Part shown: positions 8,130 to 48,714 of the stretch, one piece after another
Numbering within the stretch: the stretch's first letter is position 1
Layout of the letters: each line of letters starts with the position of its first letter
NCBI RefSeq assembly: GCF_024158035.1
Contig: NZ_JAMZEK010000001.1
Span: 1,096,001-1,160,000, forward strand
Source: Dyella lutea
GTDB lineage: Bacteria > Pseudomonadota > Gammaproteobacteria > Xanthomonadales > Rhodanobacteraceae
Direction: 5' to 3'
Length of the DNA stretch: 64,000 bases
Notes under the pieces: generated by a model
Seen by the model: the letters and a program-made list of their open reading frames with translations, nothing else
Database searches by the model: none
What the model was told of the DNA's origin: nothing
Program-made: the position numbers and the translations under genes

Positions 8130-9071
8130 ATGATGACTGTTCTCCAGACCAATCCCGACGATGCGTTGGCTGCCCGCCAGTCGCACCTCAAGCGCCTCGA
8201 AGCCGAGAGCATCCACATCCTTCGCGAGGTGGCGGCCGAGTTCCGCCATCCGGTGATGCTGTATTCCATCGGCAAGGATTCCTCGGTGCTGCTGCATCTG
8301 CTGCAGAAGGCCTTTTATCCGGCGCCGCCGCCGATCCCGCTGCTGCACGTGGACACCACCTGGAAATTCCGCGAGATGATCGCCTTCCGCGATCGCCGCG
8401 CGGCCGAGGTGGGCGCGAAGCTGATCGTTCACATCAACCAGGAAGGCGTGCACCAGGGGGTCGGCCCGTTCACCCACGGCGCCACCGTGCACACCGACAT
8501 CATGAAGACCCAGGCGCTGAAGCAGGCGCTGGACGCGCACGGCTTCGACGCGGCGATCGGCGGCGCCCGTCGCGACGAGGAGAAGTCGCGCGCCAAGGAG
8601 CGCGTGTTCTCGTTCCGCACCGCGCAGCATCGCTGGGATCCGAAGCGACAGCGGCCCGAGCTGTGGAACCTCTACAACGGCCGCATCGCCAAGGGCGAAA
8701 GCGTGCGCGTGTTCCCGCTGTCGAACTGGACCGAGCTGGATATCTGGCTCTACATCTACCGCGAGGCGATCGAGGTGCCGTCGCTGTACTTCGCCGCGCC
8801 GCGCCCGGTGGTCGAGCGCGACGGCATGCTGCTGATGGTCGATGACGAGCGCCTGCCGCTCAAACCCGGTGAACAGCCCGAAATGCGCAAGGTGCGTTTC
8901 CGCACGCTGGGCTGCTACCCGCTCACCGGCGCGATCGAATCGGAGGCCGACGACCTGCCCAAGGTGATCCAGGAGATGCTCATCGCACGCACCTCCGAGC
9001 GGCAGGGGCGGGCGATCGACCACGATCCGTCCGCTTCGATGGAAAAGAAGAAGCAGGAGGGCTACTTCTGA
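8130..9071 (+). CDS. cysD: Sulfate adenylyltransferase subunit 2
   Basis: CysD is the catalytic subunit of ATP sulfurylase, making adenosine 5'-phosphosulfate from ATP and sulfate in the cytoplasm. The 313-residue protein shows the ATP-pyrophosphatase loop [12 protein letters not shown] near residues 49-60, the [20 protein letters not shown] block, and the C-terminal [12 protein letters not shown] motif of the family. Two ATGs are adjacent at 8130 and 8133. Its stop overlaps the start of cysNC by one base (TGATG), so the two are translationally coupled. The pathway supplies sulfide for cysteine, and PAPS for any sulfotransferase such as the one at 42520. Confidence 0.97.
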
Positions 9072-10954
9072 TGGGCCGCGAACCGAACCTCTCGGTGGAC
9101 GAGTACCTCGCCCGCCACGAATCGAAGGACCTGCTGCGCTTCATCACCTGCGGCAGCGTCGACGACGGCAAGAGCACCCTGCTCGGTCGCCTGCTGTACG
9201 ACACTAAGCTGCTGTTCGATGACCAGCTCGCGGCACTGGAGGGCGACTCGCGGCGCCACGGCACGCAGAACGGCGAGCTGGATTTCGCGCTGCTGGTCGA
9301 CGGCTTGTCGGCCGAGCGCGAGCAAGGCATCACCATCGACGTGGCGTACCGCTTCTTCACCACCGAGCGGCGCAAGTTCATCGTCGCCGACTGCCCGGGC
9401 CACGAGCAGTACACCCGCAACATGGCCACCGGTGCCAGCACGGCTGACCTTGCCGTGGTGCTGATCGACGCGCGCAAGGGCGTGCTCACGCAGACCCGCC
9501 GGCATACCTACATCGCCGCGCTGCTGGGCATCCGCCATGTGCTGCTGGCGGTGAACAAGATGGATCTGGTCGGCTACGACGAGGCGACCTTCCGCGCCAT
9601 CGAAACCGAGTACGCGGCGCTCGCCGCGGGCATGGGCATTCCCCAGGTCAGTGCGATCCCGGTGTCGGCGCTGCGCGGCGAAAACATCAGCGCGCGCGCC
9701 ACGGCGATGCCCTGGTTCGACGGTCCGAGCCTGCTCGAGCACCTGGAGACGGTGGTGATCCAGCCGCCGGCGCGGACGCTGGGCTTCCGCCTGCCGGTGC
9801 AGTGGGTATGCCGGCCGGACCAGAATTTCCGCGGCTACGCCGGGCCAGTGGTGGCCGGATCGATCGCCCCGGGTGATGAGGTCGTGGTGCTGCCTGGCGG
9901 CGCGCGCTCGCGCGTGGCGCGGATCGTCACCGCCGACGGCGATCGCACGCAGGCGGTGGTCGGCGACGCCGTCACGCTGACCCTGGAAGACGAGCGTGAC
10001 ATCAGTCGCGGCGACGTGATCGCCGCGGCGGGCGATCCGCCGCAGGTGGCCGACCAGTTCGCTGCCCACCTGCTGTGGATGGACGAGGCGGCGCTGCTGC
10101 CCGGACGCGGCTACTGGCTGAAGATCGGCACGCGCACGGTCGGTGCGCAGGTCACCGAGATCAAGCACAAGGTCGACGTGAACACCCAGGAAGAGCTGGC
10201 CGCCAAGCGGCTGGAGCTCAACGAGGTGGGTTACTGCAACCTGTCGCTTGACCAGCCGGTGGCGTTCGAGCCCTACGCGGCATGCCGCGAGCTGGGCGCC
10301 TTCATCCTGATCGACCGGCAGACCAACGCCACGGTCGGTGCCGGCACGCTGGACTTCGCCCTGCGCCGCGCCGACAACATCCACTGGCAGCACCTGGACA
10401 TTGATCGCGCCGCCCGCGCGCGGCTGAAGGGCCAGTCGCCGGCCTGCCTGTGGTTCACCGGCTTGTCCGGCTCCGGCAAATCCACCGTGGCCAACCTGGT
10501 GGAGAAACGGCTGTTCGCGCTGGGCCGACACACCTACCTGCTCGACGGCGACAACGTGCGCCACGGGCTCAACCGCGACCTGGGCTTCACCGACGAGGAT
10601 CGCGTGGAGAACATCCGCCGCGTGGCGGAGGTCGCCAAATTGATGGTCGATGCCGGGCTGATCGTGCTGGTCTCCTTCATCAGTCCGTTCCGCGAGGAGC
10701 GTCGGATGGCGCGCGAGCTGTTCGCGCCCGGCGAGTTCCACGAGGTGTTCGTCGACACGCCGCTGGCGGTGTGCGAGGCGCGCGACGTGAAGGGTCTGTA
10801 CGCCAAGGCACGTGCCGGCGGCATCAGGAACTTCACCGGTATCGATTCTCCATACGAGGCACCCGAGGCGCCGGAAGTGCATCTGCATGGCGGTGACCAG
10901 GCTCCGGAACAGCTCGCCGAGCGGGTGATCCGGGAGCTGCTTGGCGAGCACTGA
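9071..10954 (+). CDS. cysNC: Bifunctional sulfate adenylyltransferase subunit 1 / adenylylsulfate kinase
   Basis: This 627-residue fusion joins the GTP-driven regulatory subunit of ATP sulfurylase to APS kinase. The N-terminal half is an EF-Tu-like GTPase: P-loop GSVDDGKST at 28-36, DCPGH at G3, NKMD at G4, then beta-barrel domains. The C-terminal part from about residue 457 is APS kinase, with its own P-loop GLSGSGKST and the FISPFREER and GLYAKAR blocks. It yields PAPS from APS. Fused CysNC proteins are common in Xanthomonadales, so the fusion is expected. No separate cysC is seen in the window. Confidence 0.97.
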
Positions 10955-35543: not shown

Positions 35544-36473
35544 TCAGCGCGCGGCGAGCCGGTCCATCACGGTGGCGAGCGCATCCTGCCAGGCCGGCGG
35601 TCGGTAACCGAAGCGACGGGTCAGTTCGCTCGTGTCCAGCACCGACCAGGCGGGGCGCTTCGCGGGCGTCGGGAACTGCGTCGTATCGATGGCCCGCACT
35701 TCCGGCGTGCACATAAGCAGGCCGCGCTCCCTGGCGGCAGCGAAAATGGCCTCGGCGAAGCCGTGCCAGGTCGTAGTGCCGCCGGCGACCAGGTGGTGGA
35801 TGCCACGCATCGAGCTGCGGCCGGCGTCGTCGGCGGCAAGCCAGGTTCCCAGCACGGCAAGCGTGCCCTCGACGATGACGTCGGTGCTGGTCGGGGCACC
35901 GTGCTGGTCCGACACCACGCTCAGCGTGTCGCGTTCGCTGCCGAGTCGGAGCATCGTCCTGAGAAAGTTGTGCCCATGCTCGGAATAGACCCAGGCGGTG
36001 CGGAGCACCAGGTGGTCGGCTTCGCTCGATGCCAGCGCTCGCTCGCCCGCCAACTTGCTGCGGCCGTAGGCCCCGAGCGGTCCGGTGGCATCGGTAGTCC
36101 GGTAAGGCACGCTGGATGAGCCGCCGAACACGTAGTCGGTGGAAAAGTGCACGATCAGGGCGCCGTGCCGTTTTGCCCACCGGCCGAGTACGCCCACGGC
36201 GTCGGCGTTGACGAGCGTGGCCAGCTCCTCCTCCTGCTCGGCCCGGTCCACCGCGGTGTAGGCGGCGGTATTGACGACAATGTCCGGCCTGATCCGGTCG
36301 AGCACGTCGACCAGGGTATCCGGTGCAGCCAGGTCGGCGGTCTCGACCGATGTGCCGTCGAAGCGCTGTCCGTCCCGGCAGGCGGTGACCAGGCTGCCCA
36401 ACCGGGCCAGACGGCCGTCGCCGACGAAGCTGCGGCCGAGCTGGCCGTTGGCACCCAGCAGCAGGATCTTCAT
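35544..36473 (-). CDS. rfbD: dTDP-4-dehydrorhamnose reductase
   Basis: RmlD reduces dTDP-4-dehydro-L-rhamnose to dTDP-L-rhamnose with NADPH. The 309-residue short-chain dehydrogenase starts with the ILLLGANGQLGRSF nucleotide site. It contains NTAAYTAVDRAE, the FSTDYVFGG motif and the catalytic YGRSKLAGE. Its start overlaps the end of rfbC by four bases, giving tight coupling. This is the fourth gene of the rmlBACD order typical of Xanthomonadales. Confidence 0.95.
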   Translation of the reverse strand: MKILLLGANGQLGRSFVGDGRLARLGSLVTACRDGQRFDGTSVETADLAAPDTLVDVLDRIRPDIVVNTAAYTAVDRAEQEEELATLVNADAVGVLGRWAKRHGALIVHFSTDYVFGGSSSVPYRTTDATGPLGAYGRSKLAGERALASSEADHLVLRTAWVYSEHGHNFLRTMLRLGSERDTLSVVSDQHGAPTSTDVIVEGTLAVLGTWLAADDAGRSSMRGIHHLVAGGTTTWHGFAEAIFAAARERGLLMCTPEVRAIDTTQFPTPAKRPAWSVLDTSELTRRFGYRPPAWQDALATVMDRLAAR

Positions 36474-37027
36474 GCGACGAAAGCCGGCAGGCGCTCCGCA
36501 GCCACTTCGCGCAGCAGCGGCGCCCTGGTGTCCTTGTCGGAGAGCAGCGGGTCGGAGATCGGCCAGTCTATGCCGATCTCGGCGTCGTTCCAGCGGATGC
36601 CCGCATCCGCCTTGGCGTCATACAGGGCGGTGCACTGGTAGGCGAAGGTGGCGTAGTCGGAGAGCACGCAGAAGCCGTGCGCGAAACCCTCCGGTACCCA
36701 GAAATGCCGGTGGTTCTCCGCCGTGAGCATGACCCCGGCCCACTGCCCGAACGTGGGCGACCCGCGGCGGATGTCCACGGCCACGTCGAACACCTCGCCT
36801 TCCAGCACGCTGACCAGCTTGCCCTGCGGGTTCGGCCACTGGTAGTGCAGGCCACGCAGTACGCCCCTGGCGGAGCGCGACACGTTCGACTGCACGAATC
36901 GGCGGTCGATGCCGGCCTCGCGGTACTTGGCCTCGTTGTAGCTTTCGTAGAAAAAGCCCCGGGCGTCGCCGAACACCTGCGGTTCGATCACCACCCCACC
37001 CGGCAGGCGGGTTTCGATCACCTTCAT
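36470..37027 (-). CDS. rfbC: dTDP-4-dehydrorhamnose 3,5-epimerase
   Basis: RmlC epimerises carbons 3 and 5 of the 4-keto sugar. The 185-residue cupin protein shows [12 protein letters not shown], the [14 protein letters not shown] block with the catalytic histidine, [18 protein letters not shown], and the FAHGF motif. Its ATG overlaps the stop of rfbA (ATGA at 37024-37027), and its stop overlaps the start of rfbD, so the operon is strongly coupled. Confidence 0.96.
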
Positions 37028-37914
37028 CGGGCGTGGCCCTCGCTCACCAGCTTGCGCAGGTACTGGCCGTAGCCGGTCTTGGCCAGCGGCTCGGCCAGCT
37101 TCAGCAGTTGTTCGTCGTCGATCCAGCCACGGAAGTGCGCGATTTCCTCGGGGCAGCAGACCTTGAGTCCCTGTCGATTCTCGATGGTCTCGATGTAGTT
37201 GCCCGCCTCCATCAGCGACTCATGCGTGCCGGTATCGAGCCAGGCGAACCCGCGACCAAGCTGTTCCAGGTGCAGCGAGCCATCGTCGAGGTAGCAGCGG
37301 TTGAGATCGGTGATCTCCAGTTCGCCGCGGGGTGACGGCCTCAGTGCGGCGGCATAGTCGCAAACGCGGTTGTCGTAGAAGTACAGTCCGGTGACGGCGT
37401 AGTGCGATTTCGGCCTGGCGGGCTTTTCCTCCAGGCCGATCACGCGCCCTTCGGCGTCGAACTCGGCCACGCCGTAGCGCTCCGGATCCTTGACCCAGTA
37501 TCCGAATACGGTAGCGCCCGCATCGCGCGCGCTGGCCCGGCGCAGACTGTCGGTCAGTCCATGCCCGTAGAAGATGTTGTCACCCAGTACCAGGCAGCTC
37601 GGGTCGTTGCCGACGAAGTCGCGGCCAATCAGGAACGCCTGCGCCAACCCGTCCGGCGAAGGTTGGACGGCATACTGGATGTCGATCCCCCACTGCGAGC
37701 CGTCTCCGAGCAGCCGCTGGAACAGCGCCTGCTCGTGCGGCGTGTTGATGATCAGGATGTCGCGGATACCGGCCAGCATCAGCGTGGCCAGCGGGTAATA
37801 GATCATCGGCTTGTCGTACACCGGCAGCAACTGCTTGCTGATCGCCTGGGTGATTGGATACAGCCGCGTTCCGGAGCCGCCGGCGAGGATGATGCCCTTG
37901 CGCTTCGTGCTCAT
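37024..37914 (-). CDS. rfbA: Glucose-1-phosphate thymidylyltransferase
   Basis: RmlA joins glucose 1-phosphate and dTTP to form dTDP-glucose. The 296-residue protein carries the signature [32 protein letters not shown], and the [19 protein letters not shown] block. ATG at 37914 overlaps the rfbB stop and gives the canonical N-terminus, so the longer in-frame reading to 37965 is rejected. Confidence 0.96.
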
Positions 37915-38960
37915 GATCCCAGTCGCTCCATGCGGTAGCTGCCATCGAGTACGCGCTGCACCCACGGCTGGTTGGCGAGGTACCAGTCCACCGTCTGCGC
38001 GATGCCGCTCTCGAAGGTCTGGGACGGCTTCCAGCCCAGTTCGCTCTGCAGCTTGGTGGCGTCGATGGCGTAACGGCGGTCGTGGCCCGGGCGGTCCTTG
38101 ACGTAGGTCATCAGCGATTCGCGCGCGCGACCGTCAGCGAGTAGCTGGCGCTGATCGAGCAGCGCGCAGATCGTCTTGACCACAGTGAGGTTGGTGCGCT
38201 CGGCATTGCCGCCGACGTTGTAGGTTTCACCGACGCGGCCACTCTCGAGCACGCGCCGGATCGCGCTGCAGTGGTCGCCAACAAACAGCCAGTCGCGGAT
38301 ATTCAGGCCGTCGCCGTAGATCGGCAGCGGCTCACCGGCAAGTGCCTTCTGGATCACCAGCGGGATCAGCTTCTCCGGGAACTGGTACGGACCATAGTTG
38401 TTCGAGCAGTTGGTGGTGAGTACCGGCAGCCCGTAGGTGTGGTGGAACGCGCGTACCAGATGGTCCGATGCCGCCTTGGAAGCGGAATACGGCGAATTGG
38501 GGGCATAGGCGGTCAGTTCGGTGAACTTGCCCTCGTCGCCCAGCGAGCCATAGACCTCGTCGGTCGACACATGCAGGAAGCGAAATGCGTCCCGTGCATC
38601 GCCTTCGAGGCTGCGCCAGTAGTCGCGGGAACACTCCAGCAGGCCCAGGGTGCCGACCACGTTGGTCTCGACGAACGCAGCCGGCCCGTCGATCGACCGG
38701 TCCACGTGGGACTCCGCAGCGAAATTCACCACCGCGTCGGGCTTGTGCTCGGCCAGCAGGCGCGCGACAAGGCTGCGGTCACCGATATCACCGTGCACGA
38801 AGATGTGACGGTCGTTGCCGGCAAGACTGGCGAGCGTGTCGGGGTTGCCCGCGTAGGTGAGCTTGTCCAGATTGATCACGCGCAGGCCATCGGCGATCGC
38901 CTGCAATACGAAGTTGGCACCAATGAAGCCGGCGCCGCCGGTGACAAGTAGAGTTTTCAT
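37911..38960 (-). CDS. rfbB: dTDP-glucose 4,6-dehydratase
   Basis: RmlB converts dTDP-glucose to dTDP-4-keto-6-deoxyglucose with bound NAD. The 349-residue short-chain dehydrogenase has the [13 protein letters not shown] nucleotide site, [11 protein letters not shown], the [10 protein letters not shown] motif with the Asp-Glu pair, and the [12 protein letters not shown] catalytic Tyr-Lys. An AGGAA ribosome site precedes ATG 38960. It is the first gene of the minus-strand rml-manC operon and is divergent from metB. Confidence 0.96.
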
Positions 38961-39124
38961 GCGGTTCCTGCATTCTTTCTTGGGGCAAACGTCAGCCATT
39001 CTCGCATGCGCGGGGCAGGGATAACCCCGGTCCCGCGGATACGCCGAACCCGTATTCATGTAAGCCCCTTGCAGCCGGGTACTATATCGGGCTGACGTCA
39101 CGCCCACCCACAAGGACACACTCC
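38961..39124. promoter_or_regulatory. Divergent promoter region between rfbB and metB
   Basis: The 164-base gap must drive the rml-manC operon leftward and metB (with the LPS genes behind it) rightward. A TACTAT at 39080-39085 is a possible -10 box for metB, but no good -35 is present. No clear operator palindrome was found. Confidence 0.35.
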
Positions 39125-40291
39125 ATGGCGACAAAGCCGAATTCGGGCGCTCTTGGGCTCGGTACCCGAGCTATCCATGCTGGACAATCCCCCGATCCGG
39201 CCACCGGGGCGATCATGACCCCGATCTATGCCACGTCGACTTACGTTCAGGACAGTCCAGGGCGGCATAAGGGGTACGAATATTCCCGGACGCAGAACCC
39301 CACCCGGATGGCGTACGAACGCTGCGTGGCGGATCTCGAGGGTGGTGTTGGTGGTTTCGCCTTCGCGTCAGGGCTTGCCGCGGCTGCGACGGTGCTCGAC
39401 TTGCTCGATTCGGGCAGTCATGTCATCGCCATGGATGATCTTTACGGGGGTACGTATCGCCTGTTCGAACGTGTGCGCAGGCGCTCAGCCGGCTTGGACT
39501 TCAGCTTCGTCGATCTCAACGACCCGAAAACCCTGCGTGCAGCACTTCGGCCGAATACGCGAATGATCTGGGCGGAGACACCCACGAACCCTATGCTGAA
39601 GCTGGTGGATCTGGCGAAGATTGCAGCCTTCGCAAAAAAACACGATCTCCTGCTGGTGGTCGACAACACCTTTTGCTCTCCGATGATCCAGCGTCCGCTA
39701 GAACTCGGTGCGGACTTGGTACTGCACTCGGCGACCAAATATCTGAACGGGCATTCCGACATGGTTGGGGGTGTTGTTGTCGCGGGCGCAGCGGAACTTG
39801 CCGAGCGCATGGCTTTCCTTCAGAACTCGGTGGGCGCCGTGGCCGGTCCGTTCGATTCCTTCCTCGCCATGCGGGGGCTCAAGACCTTGCATCTGCGCAT
39901 GAAGGCGCATTGCGCCAGCGCTTTGGAGCTGGCGGGCTGGTTGGAAAAGCATCCGGCGATCGAGCGCGTGATCTATCCGGGGTTGAAGAGCCATCCGCAG
40001 CACGCTTTGGCCAAACGGCAGATGGATGGCTTTGGCGGCATCATCAGCGTGGAAGTCAAGGGCGGGTTGCGTCGTGCGCGCCGTATGCTCGAGCGCTGCG
40101 AGCTTTTTGCACTAGCCGAGTCGCTCGGTGGCGTTGAGAGCCTAATCGAGCATCCGGCGATCATGACTCATGCGTCGGTACCCGCTGCCAATCGCAAGCG
40201 GCTGGGAATCAGCGATGGGCTGGTGCGGTTGTCGGTGGGTGTGGAAAATGTAGATGACCTGCAGCGAGAGTTGTCCCTCGCCCTGGGGTGA
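39125..40291 (+). CDS. metB: Cystathionine gamma-synthase/lyase-type PLP enzyme
   Basis: This 388-residue enzyme belongs to the Cys/Met-metabolism PLP family. Signatures include [24 protein letters not shown], the [10 protein letters not shown] block and the Schiff-base lysine in [14 protein letters not shown]. It either makes cystathionine from activated homoserine or cleaves cystathionine to cysteine; sequence alone does not decide. With cbs at 28108, a lyase role in reverse transsulfuration is attractive. In Xanthomonas this gene marks one edge of the variable LPS locus, and here too wzm follows at once. Confidence 0.9.
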
Positions 40292-40320
40292 GTCTCTCCT
40301 TAGTCTGCTCAGGTATAAAG

Positions 40321-41151
40321 ATGGAAAAGTTAATCCGCAACTCCTCGAGTTGGCCTCGGGGGATTTTCACTACGGCCTTCGCTCACCGATCCCTCGTCGC
40401 CGAGTTGACCAGGAGAGAGATTCAGGGCAAGTACCGTGGTGCCAACTTTGGCATGCTCTGGACGCTAATCAGTCCGTTCTTAATGCTTGCCGTTTATGCA
40501 CTCGCTTTTGGAAATATCTTGCGAAGCCGATGGCCTCAGGCTGATTCCGGGGGGAACAGCTTTGCGTTGATTCTTTTTGTGGGGTTGATCATTCACGGAT
40601 TTTTTGCCGAATGCATCAGTCGCGCGCCACTGCTCGTGGTTGGTAACCCAAACTACGTCAAGCGGGTTGTATTTCCGCTTGAGGTCCTTCCTTGGCCGAT
40701 GGTTTTATCGGCCCTCTTTCATTTGTTCACGAGTCTGATCGCGTTTCTGGTTCTTCAGATCTTAGTTGACCATAGGTTTGCTTGGCAGGTTGTACTGTTT
40801 CCCGTGACCATCGCCCCGCTATTCGTTCTCGCCATGGGCGTGTCCTGGTGGCTAGCAGCCCTTGGGGTCTATTTCCGGGATATCGGGCAGGTCACAAGCG
40901 TAGTCGTGACTGCCTTGCTCTTCACCTCGACGGCGATCATGCCGCTGTCTGCGGTTGCACCGGGTATTCGCTGGCTGTTCGAGCTCAACCCATTGACCTT
41001 CATCATCGATCAATCTCGCGCGGTGGCGCTCTGGGGGCACTTTCCCGATTGGGTGGGGCTTGGTCTGTACGGCCTCGTCGCCTTGCTTTTTGCCTACCTG
41101 GGTTATGGCGTCTTTATGGTGACCAAGCGAGGGTTTGCTGATGTCATCTGA
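40321..41151 (+). CDS. wzm: O-antigen ABC transporter permease Wzm
   Basis: This 276-residue ABC-2 type permease has six hydrophobic segments. The family block LTRREIQGKYRGANFGMLWTLISPF stands near the N-terminus and the NPLTFIIDQSRAVALWG segment near the C-terminus. Together with Wzt it exports a completed polysaccharide on undecaprenyl diphosphate across the inner membrane. ATG 40321 is chosen; an upstream GTG at 40288 overlaps the metB stop and is possible. The GC content is visibly lower than in the flanking housekeeping genes, as usual for LPS loci. Wzt overlaps its 3' end by 11 bases. Confidence 0.92.
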   Translation: MEKLIRNSSSWPRGIFTTAFAHRSLVAELTRREIQGKYRGANFGMLWTLISPFLMLAVYALAFGNILRSRWPQADSGGNSFALILFVGLIIHGFFAECISRAPLLVVGNPNYVKRVVFPLEVLPWPMVLSALFHLFTSLIAFLVLQILVDHRFAWQVVLFPVTIAPLFVLAMGVSWWLAALGVYFRDIGQVTSVVVTALLFTSTAIMPLSAVAPGIRWLFELNPLTFIIDQSRAVALWGHFPDWVGLGLYGLVALLFAYLGYGVFMVTKRGFADVI

Positions 41152-42523
41152 GATTTCCATCCGGGTCGACGATGTCAGCAAGAGCTTCCCGATCTATGCA
41201 CAGCCGCACCATCGGCTGATGCAGATGTTCTCGGTGGGCGAAGCCAAGAATCGCTGGTTCAGCGAGTTTCATGCGCTCTCGAAGGTCTCTTTCGAGATCC
41301 GAAAGGGCGAGACCGTTGGCATCATGGGCCGAAATGGATCGGGTAAATCGACGCTCTTACAGATCATCTGCGGAACGTTGGCCCCTTCCGCGGGACAGGT
41401 TCAGGTCAGTGGCCGTGTCGCTGCGCTCCTGGAGCTGGGCGCCGGTTTCAATCCAGAGTTCACCGGGAGAGAGAACGTCTTTCTTAACGGGACACTTCTC
41501 GGCCTGACCCGCGAACAGATCGAGGCCAAGCTGGACGAGATTTTTGCCTTTGCGGATATCGGCCAATTCGTCGACCAACCGGTGAAAAGCTATTCCAGCG
41601 GCATGTATATCCGGCTGGCCTTCGCCGTCGCGATCAACGTGTCGCCGGACATCCTGATCGTGGACGAAGCACTCTCTGTTGGAGACGAGGCGTTCCAGAG
41701 GAAGTGCTTTGCCCGGATCGAGCGAATCCGGAACGAAGGGGCCACCATCCTGTTCGTTTCGCATTCGGCCGGTACCGTACTGGAGCTGTGTAACAGGGCG
41801 ATCATGCTTGATGGTGGTGAGCTGTTGGCAATCGGCGCCCCGAAGGAGGTCGTATCCCGCTACCAGAAGCTTCTGTACGCGCCAGCAGACATGGTGAGCG
41901 GAATTCGCGAGCGCTATCGAAAAGAACTTCACGCAATCCCCGGTGGCAAGGTCGAGCCGGCCCAATCAATTGGGCGGAACGGAGCCGCTTCTTCCATTGC
42001 TGAGGCTGCCGAACTGGCAGACGCTTACTACGACCCGGGATTGCAGTCGCAAAGTCAGCTTCGTTTCGCATCCCAGGGGGCGACGATCGAGGCGCCGTGC
42101 CTGGAGACTCTGGCGGGTGAACGCGTAAACGTCGTCCGTTCTGGGGCGGAGTATGTCTTTTCCTACTGCGCGTCATTTGCCCAACTCGGTACCGGCGTGC
42201 GTTTCGGGATGCTGATCAAGTCCGTTTCCGGGCTGGAGCTCGGGGGGGCGGTAACTTCGGGTACCTTGGATGCCATCGACGTCGTCGAGCCGGGAACTTC
42301 GGTGCGAGTACGCTTCCGCTTCCGTTGCCTTCTCGCCCCAGGGACCTATTTCCTGAACGCAGGGATCCGTGGCCGGGTCGGAGAGGAAGAGACATTTCTC
42401 GACCGCGTGGTCGATGCGTTCACCTTTAGGGTGCTGCCGGATCCTGGGCGATTGGCGACCGGCTTCATCGATTTTCACGTGCAACCGCAGGTCGAATCGG
42501 TTCAGCCAGGGGACGGGGCATGA
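41141..42523 (+). CDS. wzt: O-antigen ABC transporter ATPase Wzt with C-terminal recognition domain
   Basis: This is a 460-residue ATPase. Walker A GRNGSGKST is at 63-71, the signature YSSGM is followed by Walker B ILIVDEAL, and the H-loop is SHSAG. The part after about residue 300 matches the Wzt C-terminal beta-sandwich that, in E. coli O9a, binds the chemically capped end of the glycan before export (ASFAQLGTGVRFGMLIKS, GTYFLNAGIRG). A GAGGG ribosome site precedes ATG 41141. The stop overlaps the next gene (ATGA), so the sulfotransferase is translated with it. The C-terminal domain suggests that chains are capped. Confidence 0.92.
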   Translation: MSSEISIRVDDVSKSFPIYAQPHHRLMQMFSVGEAKNRWFSEFHALSKVSFEIRKGETVGIMGRNGSGKSTLLQIICGTLAPSAGQVQVSGRVAALLELGAGFNPEFTGRENVFLNGTLLGLTREQIEAKLDEIFAFADIGQFVDQPVKSYSSGMYIRLAFAVAINVSPDILIVDEALSVGDEAFQRKCFARIERIRNEGATILFVSHSAGTVLELCNRAIMLDGGELLAIGAPKEVVSRYQKLLYAPADMVSGIRERYRKELHAIPGGKVEPAQSIGRNGAASSIAEAAELADAYYDPGLQSQSQLRFASQGATIEAPCLETLAGERVNVVRSGAEYVFSYCASFAQLGTGVRFGMLIKSVSGLELGGAVTSGTLDAIDVVEPGTSVRVRFRFRCLLAPGTYFLNAGIRGRVGEEETFLDRVVDAFTFRVLPDPGRLATGFIDFHVQPQVESVQPGDGA

Positions 42524-43812
42524 GCGAGAGCAGCACAGCCATCCTCGTGCTCGGTATGCATCGCAGCGGCACGTCTGCCTTGACTCGGGTGCTGAACCTT
42601 CTGGGAGCCCATGTCGGAGACGATCTGCTGGCTGCCAAGGCCGACAATGCACGAGGCTTCTGGGAGCACGCCGAGGCGGTTGCCATCCATGATCGGCTGC
42701 TTACTGCGCTCGGGATGAGTTGGCACGATCCCAGAGAGCTCCCGGCAGGATGGCTGGCTTCGTCCGCCGGGAGAACGGCTGCGGGAGAGGTCGCGCGGCT
42801 GATCGAGCGGGACATGAAGGGTAAAAGGCTTTGGGCGGTCAAGGACCCCCGCATGTGTCGGCTGGCCCCTTTGTGGATTGAGGCGTTGCGTAGTCTAGGA
42901 ATTGGAGCCAAGGCGGTTCTGGCCGTCCGCGACCCCTACGAAGTGGCAAGCTCCCTGCATGTACGTGACGGGTGGAGCCACCAGCACACCTATCTGATGT
43001 GGGCAGAACACCTGCTCGAGGCACTGCGCGCGACGGCGGATATTCCCCGGGCTCTGGTTTCCTACGAGCAACTTTTGGGGAACTGGCGCATGCACATAGG
43101 CCGCTTGGCTGATCAGCTTGGAATAAGCTGGGACCCGGGCCCGGAACACGCTGGTCCTGCGATCGAAGCATTCCTTACGCCTGATGAGCGGCATCATGAT
43201 GTGTCGCATTCGGGGCTGGATGTCCAGTTTGGATATGTGCCTCCGACCTTTCTGAAGCGCTTGCACGCGGCTTGCGTCGAAACCAGCCTGGACGCGAATT
43301 GGCGACGACTGGATGAGTTCGATCGGCAATTCAGCGCTGTGGCCGAGGTGTTCGCCGGTCCTATGGATGAAGTGACCACCAGCCGCGACAAGGCTGCTCA
43401 GGTCGGGCTTGAGCAAGGACATCTTGCTCAGGAGCGGCTGGAGCGTATCCACCAGTTGCAGGTCGAATTGGAGGAGGCTGTCCGCAATCAGGCCAACCTT
43501 CAAACTCTTGCTGTGGAGAGAATAGAACGCATCCACCAGTTGGATGCCGCATTGGCGACTGCCACAACTGAGCGGGGTGCCTTCGAGGCACTCTCTGCGG
43601 AGAGGATTGAACGAATTCACCAGCTGCAGGCCGATCTCGCTCGGCTACAGCATGTGGAGTTGGATCTGGCATCCCGCACCAGCGAGATGCACAGCGTCAG
43701 GGATCAGCTCAAGGACCTCTCGAATCTGGCCGGTAGCCGCTGGTGGGCTTTGAAGCGTGTCGTGCGACCGCTACGACCATCACAATCCCTAAGCGCACCA
43801 GTAAAAGGATGA
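42520..43812 (+). CDS. Sulfotransferase domain fused to a 28-residue-repeat coiled coil (possible O-antigen cap and ruler)
   Basis: This 430-residue protein has two parts. Residues 1-280 form a sulfotransferase-type domain: the PAPS 5'-phosphosulfate loop GMHRSGTS (12-19) and the 3'-phosphate site RDPYEVASS (137-145). From about 285 the chain is a coiled coil. The ten residues ERIERIHQLQ recur at 305, 333 and 361, spaced exactly 28 residues or four heptads. A basic, aromatic end (SRWWALKRVVRPLRP, 406-420) could touch the membrane. It overlaps wzt by four bases. By analogy to WbdD, it may sulfate the growing chain end while the coiled coil sets length. That role is inference; sulfation of another sugar position is the simpler alternative. 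Confidence 0.78.
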   Translation: MSESSTAILVLGMHRSGTSALTRVLNLLGAHVGDDLLAAKADNARGFWEHAEAVAIHDRLLTALGMSWHDPRELPAGWLASSAGRTAAGEVARLIERDMKGKRLWAVKDPRMCRLAPLWIEALRSLGIGAKAVLAVRDPYEVASSLHVRDGWSHQHTYLMWAEHLLEALRATADIPRALVSYEQLLGNWRMHIGRLADQLGISWDPGPEHAGPAIEAFLTPDERHHDVSHSGLDVQFGYVPPTFLKRLHAACVETSLDANWRRLDEFDRQFSAVAEVFAGPMDEVTTSRDKAAQVGLEQGHLAQERLERIHQLQVELEEAVRNQANLQTLAVERIERIHQLDAALATATTERGAFEALSAERIERIHQLQADLARLQHVELDLASRTSEMHSVRDQLKDLSNLAGSRWWALKRVVRPLRPSQSLSAPVKG

Positions 43813-43883: not shown

Positions 43884-45197
43884 GTGAATCTGTTTGAGAA
43901 AATCGCCTGGTATTACCGACACCGTGGCCTCGGGGCGCTAATCGCAAGGGTGATCAATGGCCGGCCGTTGACGGCAGATCAGATATTGGGCGGCGACGTT
44001 GGAGCGACTAACCAAGGCGGTGCTCCGGCAAAATCGGGGCAGGGCTTTGCCTCGGCTCACGCCGTTTTGTCCAGGCGTTTCCTCGCGATCCAGCCCATGC
44101 GCGTGTACAGCGTACCGGGTACTGAGGAGCGCCTTAACCTGGTCACCGACAGTATCAACATGGGTTCGCTGTTCGGCGGTGTTGGTACCGCGATCCTGCT
44201 GGCTGCCATGTTGGCAACCCGTCGCGGGGCGAAACTTCGTGTCGTCACGCGGACGGAAGCACCTGATGAGCGGGGTTTTGCCCAGGTCCTAGAGTGCAAC
44301 GGCCTGATGGTGCCCGGGAACGTGGAGTTCGTGCATCTCAACGTGGCCGATAGCAAGGCGCAGCTGGACGTCTGCGATGGCGACAGGTTCCTCACCACGT
44401 CCTGGTGGACTACCGCCTCGGTGCTGGGCAGCGTGGCAGCCCGCAAGGTGGACTATCTGCTCCAGGAAGATGAGCGGATGTTCTATCCGTATGGCGATGA
44501 CTGGATCCGTTGCAACGAGATCATGCTGCGAAGTGATATCCGCTTCGTGATCAATACCGAGTTGCTGTACCGCCACCTGCTTGAAACGGGTATGACGCAT
44601 CTGCGGGATACGGCCGTATGGTTCGAACCGGCTTTTCCGGCGCCACCTGTCCGGCAACGCCAGGGTCGGCTGGATCAAGCCAAGCGCAAGCTGTTTTTCT
44701 ATGCGCGCCCCAACAATGTCCGCAACCTCTTCTATCGCGGCCTGGAGGTCCTGGACAGGGCTGTATCGGAGGGCGTGCTCGCCCCTGAGCTATGGGAGGT
44801 GGTCTTGGTCGGTAAGGACGTACCCAAGGTGCGGCTGGGCGACTCGGTCGAGCCCACGGTGCTGCCCACCATGGGATGGCGCGAATACCGGGATTTCATT
44901 GCCGGAGTGGATGCCGGGTTCTGCCTGATGTCGACTCCGCACCCCAGTTACCCGCCGCTGGACCTGGCGTCCGCGGGCTCCTTCGTGCTCACCAACAAGT
45001 TCGGCATCAAGCAGGACCTGGGTAACTACTCGCCACGCATCGTGTGTGCGGATCTCAGTACGGCGGCGCTGCTGGACGGGTTGCGGACGGTTATTGCTAT
45101 GGCGGAGGGTGCTGCAGTTGGGCCAGGCGATGACGACTGGAAGGGGGCGCGGTGCTGGAAGACCAGCTTGGGCGGCGTCATCGAGTTCCTGAGGTAG
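43884..45197 (+). CDS. WsaF-like glycosyltransferase (probable rhamnosyltransferase)
   Basis: This 437-residue protein resembles the WsaF rhamnosyltransferase family. It has the VTDSINMGSLFGGVGTAILL segment near residue 90, DYLLQEDERMFYPYGDDW in the middle, and a C-terminal GT-B half with FYARPNNVRNLFYRGLEVLD and the HPSYPPLDLASAG nucleotide-binding region. It should be cytoplasmic and use dTDP-rhamnose made by the rfb operon. The start is a GTG with GGAG six bases ahead. The gap of 71 bases to the sulfotransferase has no feature I can name. Confidence 0.8.
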   Translation: MNLFEKIAWYYRHRGLGALIARVINGRPLTADQILGGDVGATNQGGAPAKSGQGFASAHAVLSRRFLAIQPMRVYSVPGTEERLNLVTDSINMGSLFGGVGTAILLAAMLATRRGAKLRVVTRTEAPDERGFAQVLECNGLMVPGNVEFVHLNVADSKAQLDVCDGDRFLTTSWWTTASVLGSVAARKVDYLLQEDERMFYPYGDDWIRCNEIMLRSDIRFVINTELLYRHLLETGMTHLRDTAVWFEPAFPAPPVRQRQGRLDQAKRKLFFYARPNNVRNLFYRGLEVLDRAVSEGVLAPELWEVVLVGKDVPKVRLGDSVEPTVLPTMGWREYRDFIAGVDAGFCLMSTPHPSYPPLDLASAGSFVLTNKFGIKQDLGNYSPRIVCADLSTAALLDGLRTVIAMAEGAAVGPGDDDWKGARCWKTSLGGVIEFLR

Positions 45198-45203
45198 TCG
45201 CCG

Positions 45204-46382
45204 ATGTTTATCGTTTCTGAGCAACCCCACGCCTACAAGGACCCGTGGGACATTCCGTTTTCCGAGCGGTTCAGGGCCCTTTGTGCGGGAAGTCGCCGGG
45301 TGGCGTATTTCTACGAGCGGCCCGATACCAGTACGTTCCGTTACCGTGTCTACAACATGATCCAGGTACTACGAAGCCTGGGCCAGGACATCGGTGCCGG
45401 GTTCTTCGGCAACGACGACAAGGACGACTTGACGCGGGTGGTGGATGCGGCCGACGTCATCGTGATCTGCCGGGCGCGCTACAACCAGCACATCAACCAG
45501 ATGATCACCCGGGCCCGTGAGCAGGGTAAGCGGGTCGTCTTCGATGTGGACGACCTAGTCTTCAATACGGACTACGTGCACCTGATTCTGCGCACGCTGG
45601 ACCAGGATATCGAAGTCCCTCAGGCCTGGGACACCTGGTTCGGTTTGATCGGCCGGATCGGCGCGACGCTGCGCATGTGTGACTCAGCCATCGCCACCAA
45701 CGCCTACCTCGCCAACAAGATCAGCGAATATTCCGGCCTGCCTACGGAAGTGATCCCCAATTTTTTGAACCGGGAGCAACTGGCCATCTCCGACCGCATC
45801 TTCAAAGAGAAGGTGGACTCAGGGTTTCGGCGGACCGACGCGATCCACATCGGCTACTTCAGTGGTACGCCAACCCATAATCACGACTTTGCAGTTGCAG
45901 CCAAGGCGCTTGCCGCCGCGATGAAGGAAGACACAAGGCTCCGGCTGCTTGTTGTGGGCTTTCTGGAGCTGAAAGGGGGGCTTGAGGCGTATTCCGACCG
46001 CATCGAGTTCTATCCATTGCATGATTTTGTCAATCTGCAGCGGATCATGTCGTTGGTAGAGATAAACATCGTTCCGCTAGTCGATAACGGTTTCACCAAC
46101 TGCAAGTCGGAGCTGAAATACTTCGAAGCCGCTGCGGTCGGAACGTTGACCGTTGCCACGCCCATCCACAGCTACGCAAGCGCCATAACGCCAGGGGAGA
46201 ACGGCTATCTCGCCAGGAGTACGGATTGGGGTGACTGCATTGGCCGGCTGTCAGATGACTTCAGAGGTTATGCGGCGATGGCGGAAAGGGCGCATGCTCA
46301 CACCATGGCAACGTATGGTTGGTTCAACCAACTGGAGCGTATCGAGCGGGTGCTGTTTGGTGGCAACAGCCGTCGACGGTAG
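45204..46382 (+). CDS. Glycosyltransferase, GT-B fold (GT4-like)
   Basis: This 392-residue protein has the pattern of glycosyltransferases in rhamnan-type clusters: VAYFYERPDTSTFRYRVYNM, VIVICRARYNQHINQMI, VFDVDDLVF, then the C-terminal domain with IGYFSGTPTHNHDF and the acceptor-proximal ELKYFEAAAVGT motif. It starts six bases after the WsaF-like gene stops, so the two are probably translated as a pair. Donor and linkage are not readable from the sequence. It is the last plus-strand gene of the locus; a convergent block follows. Confidence 0.82.
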   Translation: MFIVSEQPHAYKDPWDIPFSERFRALCAGSRRVAYFYERPDTSTFRYRVYNMIQVLRSLGQDIGAGFFGNDDKDDLTRVVDAADVIVICRARYNQHINQMITRAREQGKRVVFDVDDLVFNTDYVHLILRTLDQDIEVPQAWDTWFGLIGRIGATLRMCDSAIATNAYLANKISEYSGLPTEVIPNFLNREQLAISDRIFKEKVDSGFRRTDAIHIGYFSGTPTHNHDFAVAAKALAAAMKEDTRLRLLVVGFLELKGGLEAYSDRIEFYPLHDFVNLQRIMSLVEINIVPLVDNGFTNCKSELKYFEAAAVGTLTVATPIHSYASAITPGENGYLARSTDWGDCIGRLSDDFRGYAAMAERAHAHTMATYGWFNQLERIERVLFGGNSRRR

Positions 46383-46582: not shown

Positions 46583-47224
46583 CTAGGACAGCGCGGGCGG
46601 TCTCATAGCGAGCAGCGCAGCGACGCTGATCAACACCGATACCAGCCAGCCAAAGAAATAAGCGCCCCCGTCTAGGGCCATGATGTGCTGGGGGGACACT
46701 TCGCGGATAGAAGCAAACCGCAGTGACAACGATCGCTTCTGGTCGGCTCCATTCATTGCTGCAACTCCTAACCTAGTGTCTGCCGTCAGCCAGGCGGTTG
46801 GGGCATGTCCGGATTTGATGCCGACGCCGGTAATGGCAATTTCGAATTTCTGCCCTGCGGCGATGCCTTTGCTCGGGCAAAAGTACTTGAACTCGTTGTC
46901 CTTGAGACGGACGGACCGGATGGCCCATTGGTCGAGGTCTTTCCCTTGTCGCCAAGTGATTTCTAGAGCGCCATGATTGGTCCGCGCATAAGTGGCAAAC
47001 TGAATGCCGAAGCATAGGTGACGGCCCAACTCGGCAATGATGTTCGAAGCGGGGATATCTCCTTCTTGAAGTACCTTGGTTCCATCGACGAACTCCCCCG
47101 CAGGAACCGGATGCTGGGGCTCACTCCCAACGACTCGATCAGCGACATTAAACGGTGCCAACACAGTCAATGTGAGGATACAAAGTACGATTATGGCAGC
47201 AAATCGACGCATTTCAGGTCTCAA
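46583..47224 (-). CDS. Hypothetical membrane protein with extracytoplasmic domain
   Basis: I do not recognise this 213-residue protein. It has one N-terminal hydrophobic helix (about residues 8-25), a periplasmic stretch of about 160 residues containing two cysteines (HLCFG, KYFCPS), and a second helix near the C-terminus (about 190-207). Its start overlaps the stop of the GT-C gene by four bases (47221-47224), so the products probably work together at the periplasmic face, perhaps as an accessory or acceptor-binding subunit. Base composition is less GC-rich than in flanking genes. Confidence 0.68.
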   Translation of the reverse strand: MRPEMRRFAAIIVLCILTLTVLAPFNVADRVVGSEPQHPVPAGEFVDGTKVLQEGDIPASNIIAELGRHLCFGIQFATYARTNHGALEITWRQGKDLDQWAIRSVRLKDNEFKYFCPSKGIAAGQKFEIAITGVGIKSGHAPTAWLTADTRLGVAAMNGADQKRSLSLRFASIREVSPQHIMALDGGAYFFGWLVSVLISVAALLAMRPPALS

Positions 47225-48714
47225 AGTTGACCATAAAACTTAAGCACGTGGTGGAGGTAGAAGTTGTCGACGACAAGCATCGCTCCGATTGATGCGTAAA
47301 GGGCAGCTCGCGAGAGATGGTGTCCTCGCATCGGGTAAGCCAGAACTACCGCAAGAAACGGTATGACTGGATAAAAATAGCGCCCTTGGGCAGCTCGGAG
47401 CTCCCCATAGTAGGCGGCCCATACTTGCTGATACAGGAGCAGGGCAAGGAACATCACACATAAACTTCCTGTGACCAGCAGCCATGCAGTACCCGTTGCG
47501 CTTGAAATTTCACGCACTCGGATAATCACCGTCGCTAGGAGCGCAAGCAAAATAGTGCCACAGTCGATGGCCGCGAACTGCGCATGCGTTTTGGTAAGTG
47601 CGATGACTGTGGTTGCTCCTACTGCGAGAACGATTGATGTCACCCATGCCCGCCGCGAAATACGACCCGCCAGAATGCGAAAGAGGACCAGCATCGCGCT
47701 CAGAAAGAAAGTGGCCTCAAAATAAACTAGGGCGAAACCGCTGACTTGCATGGCTGTTGGTAATGCATGGATCTTATATCCCCAGTCAACGAAAATGCCC
47801 ACGTAGTTGATCAGGCATTGCTGCCAAAACGGCTGCACATGCATGTATTCAAAAAATCCGACTGCGACATGGGTGTGTTGTTGGGAGGGGTCGTCAAACG
47901 ACGGAATAAGGTGATGCAGTAGAAGTATGTTTCTTATCATCCAGATGCATATGGGGAGAAACATGGTCAGCCAAAGTCCGCTGGCCTGCTTAATCACTTG
48001 AAGGACAGTGGTTGTCGTTGATTTGCGGTGCCAAAGCCGGTAGCTCATGGCGAAATAGAGTGGTATTGCCAAAGCCAGGACCGTGGCTTTCGTGATCAAG
48101 CCGAGCGCAATAAAAATGGCACACCAGATCGCGTGCCGGAAGTCATTTGTGGTCGACCAGCGAGCGCACCAGAATGTGGCCCATGCAGCCAAGCAAGCCA
48201 CAAGCGTGTCGTGCGACACGCCGCTGGCCTGCTGGATGAACATCGGCGTGCAGCCGAAGAAGATGGCGCAGGCGAGTGCAAGTATTCCGTTGCCGGTCGC
48301 TTCGGTGATCAGGCAAATGAAACCAAAGATGGTCATTGCCCCGAACAGTGCGCTGACCAAGCGAACGCTGCGCACTTGAGACTCGAAGCTCAACCCCATG
48401 GCGCGGGCGGCGACCAATGACGGCGCTGCGAGCATATAGTAGAGAGGCGGGTGCTGTGCGATCCAGTTAAGGCCAGGTGTTTGATTCGGCCCGAATTGGG
48501 AGGCTGTTACATCTTCTCCCATCTGGGCCTGGCCCAGAACCGGTATATCTCCGTGGGAGATATCTTCCACATACGAATAATGGCCGGTTTCATCGGGAAT
48601 TACCCACAAGGGAGTAATGAAAAATGCATAGGCCGCGTATTTCAGGAAAAAAGCGAGAACAATCACCCCGACGAGCGCGGGATGCAGAGCTTTGCGCTTT
48701 TGGCTTGATTCCAT
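47221..48714 (-). CDS. Multispanning GT-C-type glycosyltransferase (DUF2142/PMT-like)
   Basis: This 497-residue protein has about 10-12 membrane helices. The first periplasmic loop has PDETGHYSYVEDI, the acidic motif typical of GT-C enzymes that take sugars from polyprenyl phosphate. A conserved QHPPLYY stretch follows. It should transfer a sugar to the O antigen on the periplasmic side. The GT2 gene just upstream could make the lipid-linked donor. The line 47701-47760 has only 29 G/C of 60, well below the window's norm, so the gene is probably a recent import. Confidence 0.78.
   Translation of the reverse strand: MESSQKRKALHPALVGVIVLAFFLKYAAYAFFITPLWVIPDETGHYSYVEDISHGDIPVLGQAQMGEDVTASQFGPNQTPGLNWIAQHPPLYYMLAAPSLVAARAMGLSFESQVRSVRLVSALFGAMTIFGFICLITEATGNGILALACAIFFGCTPMFIQQASGVSHDTLVACLAAWATFWCARWSTTNDFRHAIWCAIFIALGLITKATVLALAIPLYFAMSYRLWHRKSTTTTVLQVIKQASGLWLTMFLPICIWMIRNILLLHHLIPSFDDPSQQHTHVAVGFFEYMHVQPFWQQCLINYVGIFVDWGYKIHALPTAMQVSGFALVYFEATFFLSAMLVLFRILAGRISRRAWVTSIVLAVGATTVIALTKTHAQFAAIDCGTILLALLATVIIRVREISSATGTAWLLVTGSLCVMFLALLLYQQVWAAYYGELRAAQGRYFYPVIPFLAVVLAYPMRGHHLSRAALYASIGAMLVVDNFYLHHVLKFYGQL

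Follow-up and report, generated by a model that had tools for sequence, protein, structure and literature searches.

The length and export of O-antigen chains are decided by chain termination and cap recognition, and the known export caps are methyl, methyl-phosphate or Kdo. The Wzm/Wzt locus of Dyella lutea raises the question of what a sulfotransferase-like gene is doing directly 3' of wzt. The first-pass annotation of the window (the whole stretch of 64,000 nucleotides that was analysed) had proposed that its product caps the chain with sulfate and sets its length. We regard this reading, a sulfate cap-and-ruler terminator of a Wzm/Wzt O-antigen system, as the best one and, judging from sequence comparisons, as probably correct.

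The candidate terminator gene (42520..43812, + strand) has an ATG start and encodes 430 aa, with an N-terminal sulfotransferase, a long helix and a basic C-terminus. It overlaps wzt by four bases (42520-42523), as annotated. The wzt gene (41135..42523, +) encodes an ABC ATPase (ABC_tran) and a C-terminal cap-binding domain (hereafter CBM; Wzt residues 308-446, 42056..42472, +, PF14524, E 2e-27), and is preceded by the permease gene wzm (40288..41151, +, PF01061). Downstream of the candidate gene are encoded a WsaF-type (rhamnosyl)transferase (43884..45197, +, PF22772/PF21374) and a GT4-type glycosyltransferase (45204..46382, +, PF13692). The rmlDCAB-like dTDP-rhamnose genes, recognised in translations, occupy 35544..39134 on the - strand. 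PAPS would be supplied by CysNC (9071..10954, +), which carries the sole APS kinase domain found in the genome. APS kinase genes showed no general enrichment near the loci of the three sets that we compared (2/80, 6/80 and 0/60 loci).

A Pfam scan of the 430-aa protein matched residues 8-206 (42541..43137, +) to two sulfotransferase families above their cut-offs, PF13469 (35.4 bits for a cut-off of 27, E 1.7e-8) and PF00685 (24.2 for 22, E 2.5e-5). These families were its only result, and the methyltransferase or kinase domain of WbdD sensu stricto is absent. The NCBIfam scan returned nothing beyond weak coiled-coil look-alikes, and phmmer found no match in the PDB. Both PAPS-type motifs of the first-pass annotation were recovered: GMHRSGTS (residues 12-19, 42553..42576, +), which we take to be the 5'-phosphosulfate loop, and RDPYEVASS (residues 137-145, 42928..42954, +), presumably the 3'-phosphate site via R137 and S145. 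The loop is present in all 29 rows of alignment A1, which were excised using it as the anchor. R137 and S145, which played no part in the choice of these rows, are invariant in 29/29 of them and in 57/57 of a second set of rows. The A1 profile matched PDB entries weakly (tyrosylprotein sulfotransferase, E 0.0017; aryl sulfotransferase, 0.004). Foldseek placed only sulfotransferases at ranks 1-14 (E 2e-6 to 3e-5), with tyrosylprotein sulfotransferases as the nearest fold and TM-scores that are low (0.29-0.36) when normalised by the length of a query that includes the helix. Among six wzt-linked homologues scanned, PF13469 was below the cut-off in two (L031, L060) and unlisted in four (L034, L035, L048, L066). 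From these predictions, the 430-aa protein is a PAPS-type sulfotransferase followed by one predicted helix of 143 residues. Tyrosylprotein, heparan 3-O- and cytosolic sulfotransferases share its fold and motifs, but they have other acceptors, no coil and no tie to an exporter.

In Rhodanobacteraceae loci, the slot 3' of wzt is filled by swappable enzymes: methyltransferases, WbdD and sulfotransferases. We chose by hand 60 other Wzt_C loci among the matches listed, including five with weaker or more distant sulfotransferase matches (G007, G207, G208, G224, G228), and defined the slot ORF as the longest same-strand ORF within 900 bases. Such an ORF followed wzt in 58 of these 60 hand-picked loci. 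We classified 48 slot ORFs: 46 lie within 150 bases of wzt, and 46 have a predicted coil. Two slot proteins are WbdD-like, one with 35% identity over 678 aa to E. coli O9 WbdD (L266, E 2e-118) and one with 26% over 650 aa (L271). The gene order in E. coli HS (O9) is wzm, wzt and a 708-aa methyltransferase, which we take to be WbdD. The comparison shows that the predicted sulfotransferase occupies the position of WbdD and that the two slots are equivalent. It also bears out the suggestion that a sulfotransferase replaces the WbdD catalytic domain, since in relatives this slot is taken by WbdD-like proteins or by methyltransferases with a coil. The likeness to WbdD of E. coli O9/O9a, a kinase-methyltransferase terminator with a coiled-coil ruler, extends from the gene position directly 3' of wzt to the putative N-terminal cap enzyme, the long coil and an Arg at the same column of Wzt. 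The proteins differ in length (708 aa for WbdD, 430 for the Dyella protein) and in the Dyella enzyme being a predicted sulfotransferase with no methyltransferase or kinase domain.

The CBM of Wzt follows the sulfotransferases. In 233 genomes, 48 of the 51 strong matches to the CBM type of the window had a sulfotransferase within 5 kb, a proportion favoured by the make-up of the CBM models, which derive from sulfotransferase-linked rows. The three remaining loci carry DUF4915 proteins, and neither the P0001 search, PF13469 nor the SULF model found a sulfotransferase near them. On the CBM model, six of seven distant sulfotransferase-linked Wzts (Sulfuricella, Paenibacillus, Desulfonema and others) scored 6e-40 to 4e-60; the scores were 2e-16 or weaker for Wzts of the same family as the window whose neighbours are methyltransferase or WbdD-like genes. 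In a tree of 99 Wzt_C rows, one branch (SH-aLRT 100, length 2.34) sets the sulfotransferase group apart, our trees being "quick" builds with long branches that are prone to false joins. On one side of this branch are every row linked to this sulfotransferase (41), three linked to a second subfamily, two in which a sulfotransferase follows a few kb later, and a single DUF4915 row. Terminator type is also reflected in the ATPase domain (12 changes versus nine for the CBM, with ten unclassified slots excluded), hence whole-operon co-transfer accounts for part of the pairing.

Outlying members of this CBM type show other arrangements. Two of them (L301, L303) have Sulfotransfer_2 proteins two genes 3', for which blastp detects no relation, and the L301 cluster includes an APS kinase gene. 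In L301 and L302 a methyltransferase lies directly 3' of wzt and the sulfotransferase one gene beyond. ORFs in L299 and L300, which we presume to be sulfotransferases from their loop motifs, had no match in Pfam. The AF2 model of the window CBM (pLDDT 91) has 5hno and 2r5o as its nearest structures. It shares the fold (TM ~0.8) and family PF14524 with the CBMs 2r5o (O9a), 5hno (O12, Kdo) and 6o14/8dky (A. aeolicus, methyl), but falls in a group of its own with conserved N332, Y340, Y/F342, Y344, R356, N408 and R424. That the CBMs linked to predicted sulfotransferases form one group is well supported, and the coupling of the sulfotransferase to Wzt that was claimed for this locus holds in this respect: the partner CBM is a distinct type that tracks sulfotransferases.

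Under the cap-and-ruler reading, the N-terminal domain would transfer the sulfate of PAPS onto a lipid-linked glycan as it grows, at the non-reducing end, and this sulfation would halt elongation. The coiled-coil helix of 143 residues would keep the active site at a distance from the polymerase near the membrane, a role probably filled here by the WsaF-type and GT4 transferases of the two following genes. Only sufficiently long chains would then reach the sulfotransferase domain. The C-terminal domain of Wzt would recognise the sulfate cap and admit the chain for export. We infer that the sulfate is on the terminal sugar, that it contacts the CBM via Arg424 and neighbouring conserved residues, and that the helix is a length ruler. 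Overall, this interpretation of the candidate terminator is well supported by comparison.

AF2 predicts an unbroken helix, the candidate ruler, over residues 262-404 (143 residues, 43303..43731, +), with 10-residue pLDDT means of 76-97 up to residue 390 and of 66 for residues 391-400; pLDDT is below 50 for residues 404-430, where a WbdD-type terminator would have its membrane-proximal region for anchoring and polymerase recruitment. The exact 28-residue repeat described in the first-pass annotation stood in its spacing but not in its letters. The three copies start exactly 28 residues apart and read ERLERIHQLQ (residues 305-314, 43432..43461, +), ERIERIHQLD (333-342, 43516..43545, +) and ERIERIHQLQ (361-370, 43600..43629, +), and we rejected a letter-exact repeat. 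Only about ten residues per unit of 28 are repeated. Self-identity over the helix at lag 28 is 0.26; in 5000 shuffles it averaged 0.08 and peaked at 0.174, and across lags 5 to 79 none of them attained 0.26. Copies 2 and 3 have five synonymous codon differences among nine identical residues, so the repeat is not a recent duplication. A fixed ruler unit of 28 residues was also rejected: the nearest homologue (L031) has a single motif copy, and related motifs in L032/L033 are, by eye, 28 and ~21 residues apart. Multiples of seven are the best lag in 11 of the 14 homologues with self-similarity of at least 0.25, and in 36/68 over all those scored. The basic aromatic C-terminus is present as annotated: SRWWALKRVVRPLR spans residues 406-419 (43735..43776, +) at the end of the coil. 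Patterns like SRWWALKRVVRPLR, basic/aromatic and defined after the sequences were seen, occur in 17/40 sulfotransferase and 29/41 methyltransferase slot proteins, versus 7/417 other ORFs of at least 300 aa.

The helix could instead be a mere scaffold for dimerisation and polymerase recruitment, with length set otherwise and sulfate still capping the chain end, the half of the proposal common to both explanations. This would agree with the COILS-type score (from our own version of the matrix, here and for the homologues), which points to coil at 301-341 and 373-402 and whose maximum of 1.45 does not exceed composition shuffles, being within one sd of them (mean 1.36, sd 0.11). It would also agree with the great variation of coil length among homologues. 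We nevertheless find a scaffold unlikely, given that AF2 predicts one unbroken 143-residue helix and that indels concentrate in the coil. Between close relatives (L060/L071/L078, L089/L091/L095) the transferase domains can be aligned and large indels are mostly found in the coil, and L063 and L082 are separated by a single 42-residue indel within a run of 14-residue repeats, as suits an adjustable spacer. Coiled coils of varying length are also described, in excerpts on E. coli group 3 capsules, for putative methyltransferase genes (PMC13171606).

The linkage with wzt was assessed in 80 homologue regions from 73 genomes (seven used twice), which are mainly better-scoring matches with the weakest left out. 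A named scan retained the 80 top-ranking of 571 confirmed relatives. Homologues are not consistently found without wzt: 42/80 loci have one with this CBM type, in 40 cases directly 5' of the sulfotransferase gene and in two no more than 3.6 kb away. In the remaining 38, the region retrieved contained no wzt that matches this CBM type, so the link, though common, is not general. The exact four-base overlap recurs in 22 of the 40 wzt-linked homologues; ORF starts were set mechanically (longest ORF), and larger overlaps, from tens up to hundreds of bases, are artefacts of start choice. A predicted coil is absent in three of these 40, one of them interrupted by a contig end. Beyond the coil, 22/40 extend to 1025-1704 aa, and all four long homologues scanned (L034, L035, L060, L066) have GT2/GT4 domains. 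These four join a sulfotransferase-type N-terminus, a coil and glycosyltransferases, as in the terminator-coil-polymerase fusions described in excerpts on WbbB and O7 ORF6 (PMC11231755). The cap enzyme of WbbB (K. pneumoniae O12) and ORF6 (O7) is, however, a Kdo transferase or a methyltransferase-kinase, not a sulfotransferase, and the window copy, unlike them, has no fused glycosyltransferases.

The 38 loci lacking such a wzt would be expected if the sulfotransferase decorated internal or side-chain residues and its adjacency to wzt were ordinary clustering. So would six stand-alone homologues of 322-338 aa, which have no wzt with this CBM type and of which three lack a predicted coil. We hold internal decoration to be improbable: it leaves unexplained the slot common to WbdD-like and methyltransferase proteins, the glycosyltransferase fusions and the CBM type that follows the sulfotransferases. 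Given the shared slot and this CBM type, we also rejected an accidental linkage with wzt. One published case counts against the sulfate-cap reading. According to excerpts of its description, ORF19 of the wbsalmo cluster of A. salmonicida (a hypothetical protein of 216 aa with a sulfotransferase domain) lies between wzt and wbbB, and the authors, who left its function open, noted that sulfate does not appear in the O-antigen structure as known (PMC4483657). ORF19 is likewise part of an ABC-transporter O-antigen cluster, but it has 216 aa and no coil is mentioned in these excerpts. Excerpts on cyanobacterial export genes present nearby sulfotransferases as possible modifiers (PMC4390846).

The Wzt of the window has Arg424 (42404..42406, +) at the alignment column of Trp362 of A. 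aeolicus Wzt, the residue that stacks on the methyl cap there, so the methyl-stacking Trp is absent. This column is Trp in 35 of the 41 methyltransferase-linked Wzts (FkbM 19/19, EFTGERY 9/9, HIPFA 7/7); the other six, YSDGD-type Wzts beside a methyltransferase domain, carry Arg. It is Arg in all 51 sulfotransferase-linked Wzts (41/41, 3/3 and 7/7) and in the two beside WbdD-like proteins (2/2); L301 and L302, with their methyltransferase directly 3' of wzt, show Arg as well. E. coli O8 has Trp and E. coli O9, whose cap is methyl-phosphate, has Arg. Phylogenetically independent Trp/Arg contrasts number only two (sign test p 0.5), in a pair test that excludes the YSDGD and DUF4915 rows and the ten unclassified slots. 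A phosphate cap made by a P-loop-like domain acting as a kinase is very improbable: PFKFB kinases are among the weaker Foldseek matches and Arg424 is common to this CBM and E. coli O9, but sulfotransferases pass the Pfam cut-offs and top the fold search, the RSGTS loop stands at the position of the Walker A lysine, R137/S145 are invariant, and a Sulfotransfer_2 protein and an APS kinase gene lie near a related CBM.

A broader proposal goes beyond the cap-and-ruler reading of this locus. Sulfate would be a fourth, widespread class of export cap, with several sulfotransferase families and a dedicated CBM group, and Trp (methyl) versus Arg (acidic) in Wzt would predict the charge of the cap. We see the case for and against it as evenly balanced, the Arg of the six methyltransferase-linked YSDGD Wzts having weakened it. 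They would fit an acidic-cap rule only if the YSDGD proteins also contain an unrecognised kinase.

We found no description of a sulfotransferase-type chain terminator in the open-licence literature. The natural protein pairs that differ mainly in coil length would lend themselves to judging the idea of a ruler. If the candidate is indeed a sulfate terminator, it would represent a new chemistry of termination and place a charged tip on every O-chain in many bacteria, and the class of cap might be predictable from the sequence of Wzt.

The ORF at 42520-43812 (+) encodes 430 residues, comprising a sulfotransferase domain (residues 8-206, Sulfotransfer_3/Sulfotransfer_1 in the Pfam scan), a long helical stretch and a basic/aromatic tail, and the genome holds a single match to this protein. 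It lies downstream of wzm (40288-41151) and wzt (41135-42523), the latter encoding an ABC ATPase with a PF14524 (Wzt_C) cap-binding domain (CBM) according to Pfam, and we confirmed that the two genes share four bases, at the wzt stop and the sulfotransferase start. Downstream, Pfam identified a WsaF-type transferase and then a GT4 transferase. Further upstream, on the opposite strand, rmlDCAB-like genes were recognised by reading translations, with ManC encoded beyond them. The window also carries CysNC (9071-10954), the sole APS kinase found in the genome. A PMT_2/DUF2142-like membrane protein encoded close to the O-antigen genes on the opposite strand (47221-48714, -) could be a periplasmic glycan modifier.

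The first-pass annotation described an exact 28-residue repeat in the helix. Copies of ER(I/L)ERIHQL(Q/D) begin at residues 305, 333 and 361, and the 28-residue periodicity is well beyond that of shuffles, but "exact" fits the spacing alone, because only about 10 residues recur per unit and the motif copies vary by one or two letters. Five synonymous codon differences separate copies 2 and 3 and point to an old motif under selection rather than a fresh duplication. AlphaFold2 (57-row alignment, mean pLDDT 88) predicts a single helix at 262-404; residues 404-430 are outside the resolved part of the model. A COILS-type score supported a coil, yet was not beyond composition shuffles. The coil assignment therefore leans mainly on the AlphaFold2 model and on the repeats at heptad multiples seen in some homologues. 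The basic/aromatic C-terminal tail is present as annotated, its copy of the end-of-coil motif reading SRWWALKRVVRPLR.

PF14524 was found in at least 199 of the 233 genomes of the family (Rhodanobacteraceae). We compared the gene position 3' of wzt (the slot) in 60 Wzt_C loci besides the 40 wzt-linked ones, chosen among the matches listed. A same-strand ORF lay within 900 bases downstream of wzt in 58 of them (none in two), of which 48 had a known N-terminal type and ten were unclassified. Representatives were scanned with Pfam. The types were FkbM methyltransferases (19 of 48), a class I methyltransferase ('EFTGERY', 9), Methyltransf_24 ('HIPFA', 7), another methyltransferase type ('YSDGD', 6), a second sulfotransferase subfamily (3), WbdD-like proteins (2) and DUF4915 (2). 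Among these ORFs, 46/48 were at most 150 bases from wzt and 46/48 had a predicted coil. Alignments of the two WbdD-like proteins with WbdD of E. coli O9 span 678 and 650 residues; one of them, L271, gave Pfam matches to a methyltransferase and, at a score below the cut-off, to a protein kinase. The end-of-coil basic/aromatic motif occurred in 17/40 sulfotransferase and 29/41 methyltransferase occupants, versus 7 of the 417 other ORFs of the 60 loci. Judged from these comparisons, the position of the window protein is a terminator slot with an exchangeable catalytic domain, because WbdD-like and methyltransferase types occupy it too. This bears out the earlier suggestion that a sulfotransferase stands in WbdD's place.

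Matches to the window protein were found in 101 of the 233 genomes. Among 80 fetched places, 40 homologues directly follow a wzt of the window CBM type (22 with a four-base overlap), two more have such a wzt 3.2-3.5 kb upstream, and 38 have none within the fetched stretch. A coil is predicted after the sulfotransferase domain in 37 of the 40 wzt-linked homologues. These include 22 long proteins (1025-1704 aa counted from the domain start), and all four that were scanned (L034, L035, L060, L066) carry GT2/GT4 domains, L034 with an additional C-terminal methyltransferase. Their order of terminator, coil and polymerase matches that described in K. pneumoniae O12 and O7 (PMC11231755). Pfam is weak on the relatives' sulfotransferase domain, which scores under the cut-off in L031 and L060 and goes unlisted in L034, L035, L048 and L066; these relatives were found using the window protein as query. 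Three ORFs of 880-902 aa (L106, L109, L110) show the reversed order, with a C-terminal sulfotransferase domain and no predicted coil; the two scanned (L106, L110) have GT2 first.

The exporter's CBM follows the terminator type. On a 99-row Wzt_C tree the eight named types required 9 changes (minimum 7; at least 39 in 200 shuffles), versus 12 when mapped onto the ATPase-domain tree. A branch supported by SH-aLRT 100 set apart 41/41 sulfotransferase-linked rows and 3/3 of the second subfamily, together with two loci whose sulfotransferase is encoded a few kb downstream and one DUF4915 row. A profile built from the sulfotransferase-linked rows gave 51 strong loci in the 233 genomes (E 3.8e-43 or better; next match 1.2e-26). 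Coordinate comparison placed a sulfotransferase within 5 kb of 48; the other three (genomes G009, G144, G190) have DUF4915-coil proteins, and no sulfotransferase was found near wzt there. Among 369 genomes drawn from the class, five outside the family passed 1e-25. Immediately 3' of wzt, G566 has a window-type sulfotransferase and G357 an ORF recognised by a sulfotransferase-like loop alone, on which Pfam is silent. One gene beyond the slot, G392 has a Sulfotransfer_2 with GT4 (Methyltransf_24 gene between; the cluster also encodes APS kinase), G330 a different Sulfotransfer_3 (methyltransferase gene between), and G298 an ORF with only the loop motif (GT-like ORF between). The sole family locus at 1.2e-26 (G168) has a Sulfotransfer_2 with GT4 and RgpF, also one gene beyond. 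Blastp detected no relatedness between Sulfotransfer_2 and Sulfotransfer_3 members. For six of seven distant sulfotransferase-adjacent Wzts (Sulfuricella, Paenibacillus sedimenti, Stenotrophomonas, two MAGs and Desulfonema; the exception is L158), the nearest CBM-tree row is sulfotransferase-linked. The solved folds nearest to the window CBM model are Kdo-cap and methyl-phosphate-cap readers, then a methyl-cap reader.

Some loci show further arrangements. An APS kinase gene (L301:4495-5100) within an O-antigen cluster also encoding a Sulfotransfer_2-GT4 protein is possibly a dedicated PAPS supply. In Paenibacillus periandrae, one protein (L168:13973-15829) combines a Wzt-like ATPase with TPR repeats and a Sulfotransfer_1 domain; a 654-aa ATPase ORF of Paenibacillus lutrae (L180:13809-15773) resembles it in size. 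DUF4915-type coil proteins (550-1102 aa) occupy the slot at L270:6615-8267, L297:3050-6283, L298:3393-6476 and L275:6229-9537, those of L297 and L298 with weak glycosyltransferase matches too. The CBM is of the sulfotransferase type in three of these four loci.

In A. aeolicus Wzt, Trp362 stacks on the 3-O-methyl cap, and LPS binding is essentially abolished in W362L (PMC9445017). Profile alignment puts this residue (chain index 363, offset one) in the column of window Wzt residue 424, a candidate read-out residue for the cap. The column holds Trp with FkbM (19/19), EFTGERY (9/9) and HIPFA (7/7) types, and Arg with window-type (41/41), second-subfamily (3/3) and distant sulfotransferases (7/7, including L158), as well as YSDGD (6/6), WbdD-like (2/2) and DUF4915 (2/2) types, although the ATPase-domain tree, with 88 rows, reduces this to no more than two independent contrasts. 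The ten unclassified slots gave eight Trp and two Arg, the latter in L277 and L279, where a sulfotransferase lies further along. In E. coli the residue is Trp for strain IAI1, annotated as O8 family, and Arg for strain HS, annotated as O9 family; the reported caps are methyl in O8 and methyl-phosphate in O9 (PMC11231755). Arg also occurs in 8/8 further loci (L297-L304); L297 and L298 are among the DUF4915 loci listed above, all four of which have Arg. Six diverged Wzts encoded close to unlinked homologues gave Arg in four (L072, L083, L088, L121) and His in L175, and L079 did not align. The DUF4915-type coil protein is possibly an unknown acidic-cap enzyme.

The YSDGD type (L253, L255, L262, L263, L268, L269) is the awkward case, having Arg despite a methyltransferase domain (seen in L262). 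An acidic cap would suit it only if the unannotated region preceding the coil were a kinase, as it is in K. pneumoniae O7, whose ORF6 these proteins resemble. L262 has a methyltransferase, about 330 residues without Pfam match, a coil and two glycosyltransferases, and its partner CBM, like that of L253, shares the sequence DRRYD with E. coli O9. YSDGD proteins are candidate methyl-phosphate terminators.

Most likely, the N-terminal domain would transfer sulfate from PAPS onto the chain end, as family, fold and motifs suggest; the helix would keep the sulfotransferase site at a distance from the polymerase, by analogy with WbdD and given the long predicted helix; and the matched Wzt domain would admit capped chains only, as co-variation with the known E. 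coli and Aquifex caps suggests. The logic would be that of WbdD and WbbB, and the proposed novelty is the sulfate chemistry with a dedicated Wzt reader. We found no description of a sulfotransferase terminator in the open-licence literature; the nearest published case comes from A. salmonicida, where a gene with a sulfotransferase domain sits between wzt and wbbB and the authors offer no explanation for it (PMC4483657). Between homologues closely related to one another, large indels fall mainly within the coil region. Two such homologues, L063 and L082, are separated by a single 42-residue indel inside a run of 14-residue repeats (VAQVESELSLSQTR), and would offer a natural pair differing in ruler length.
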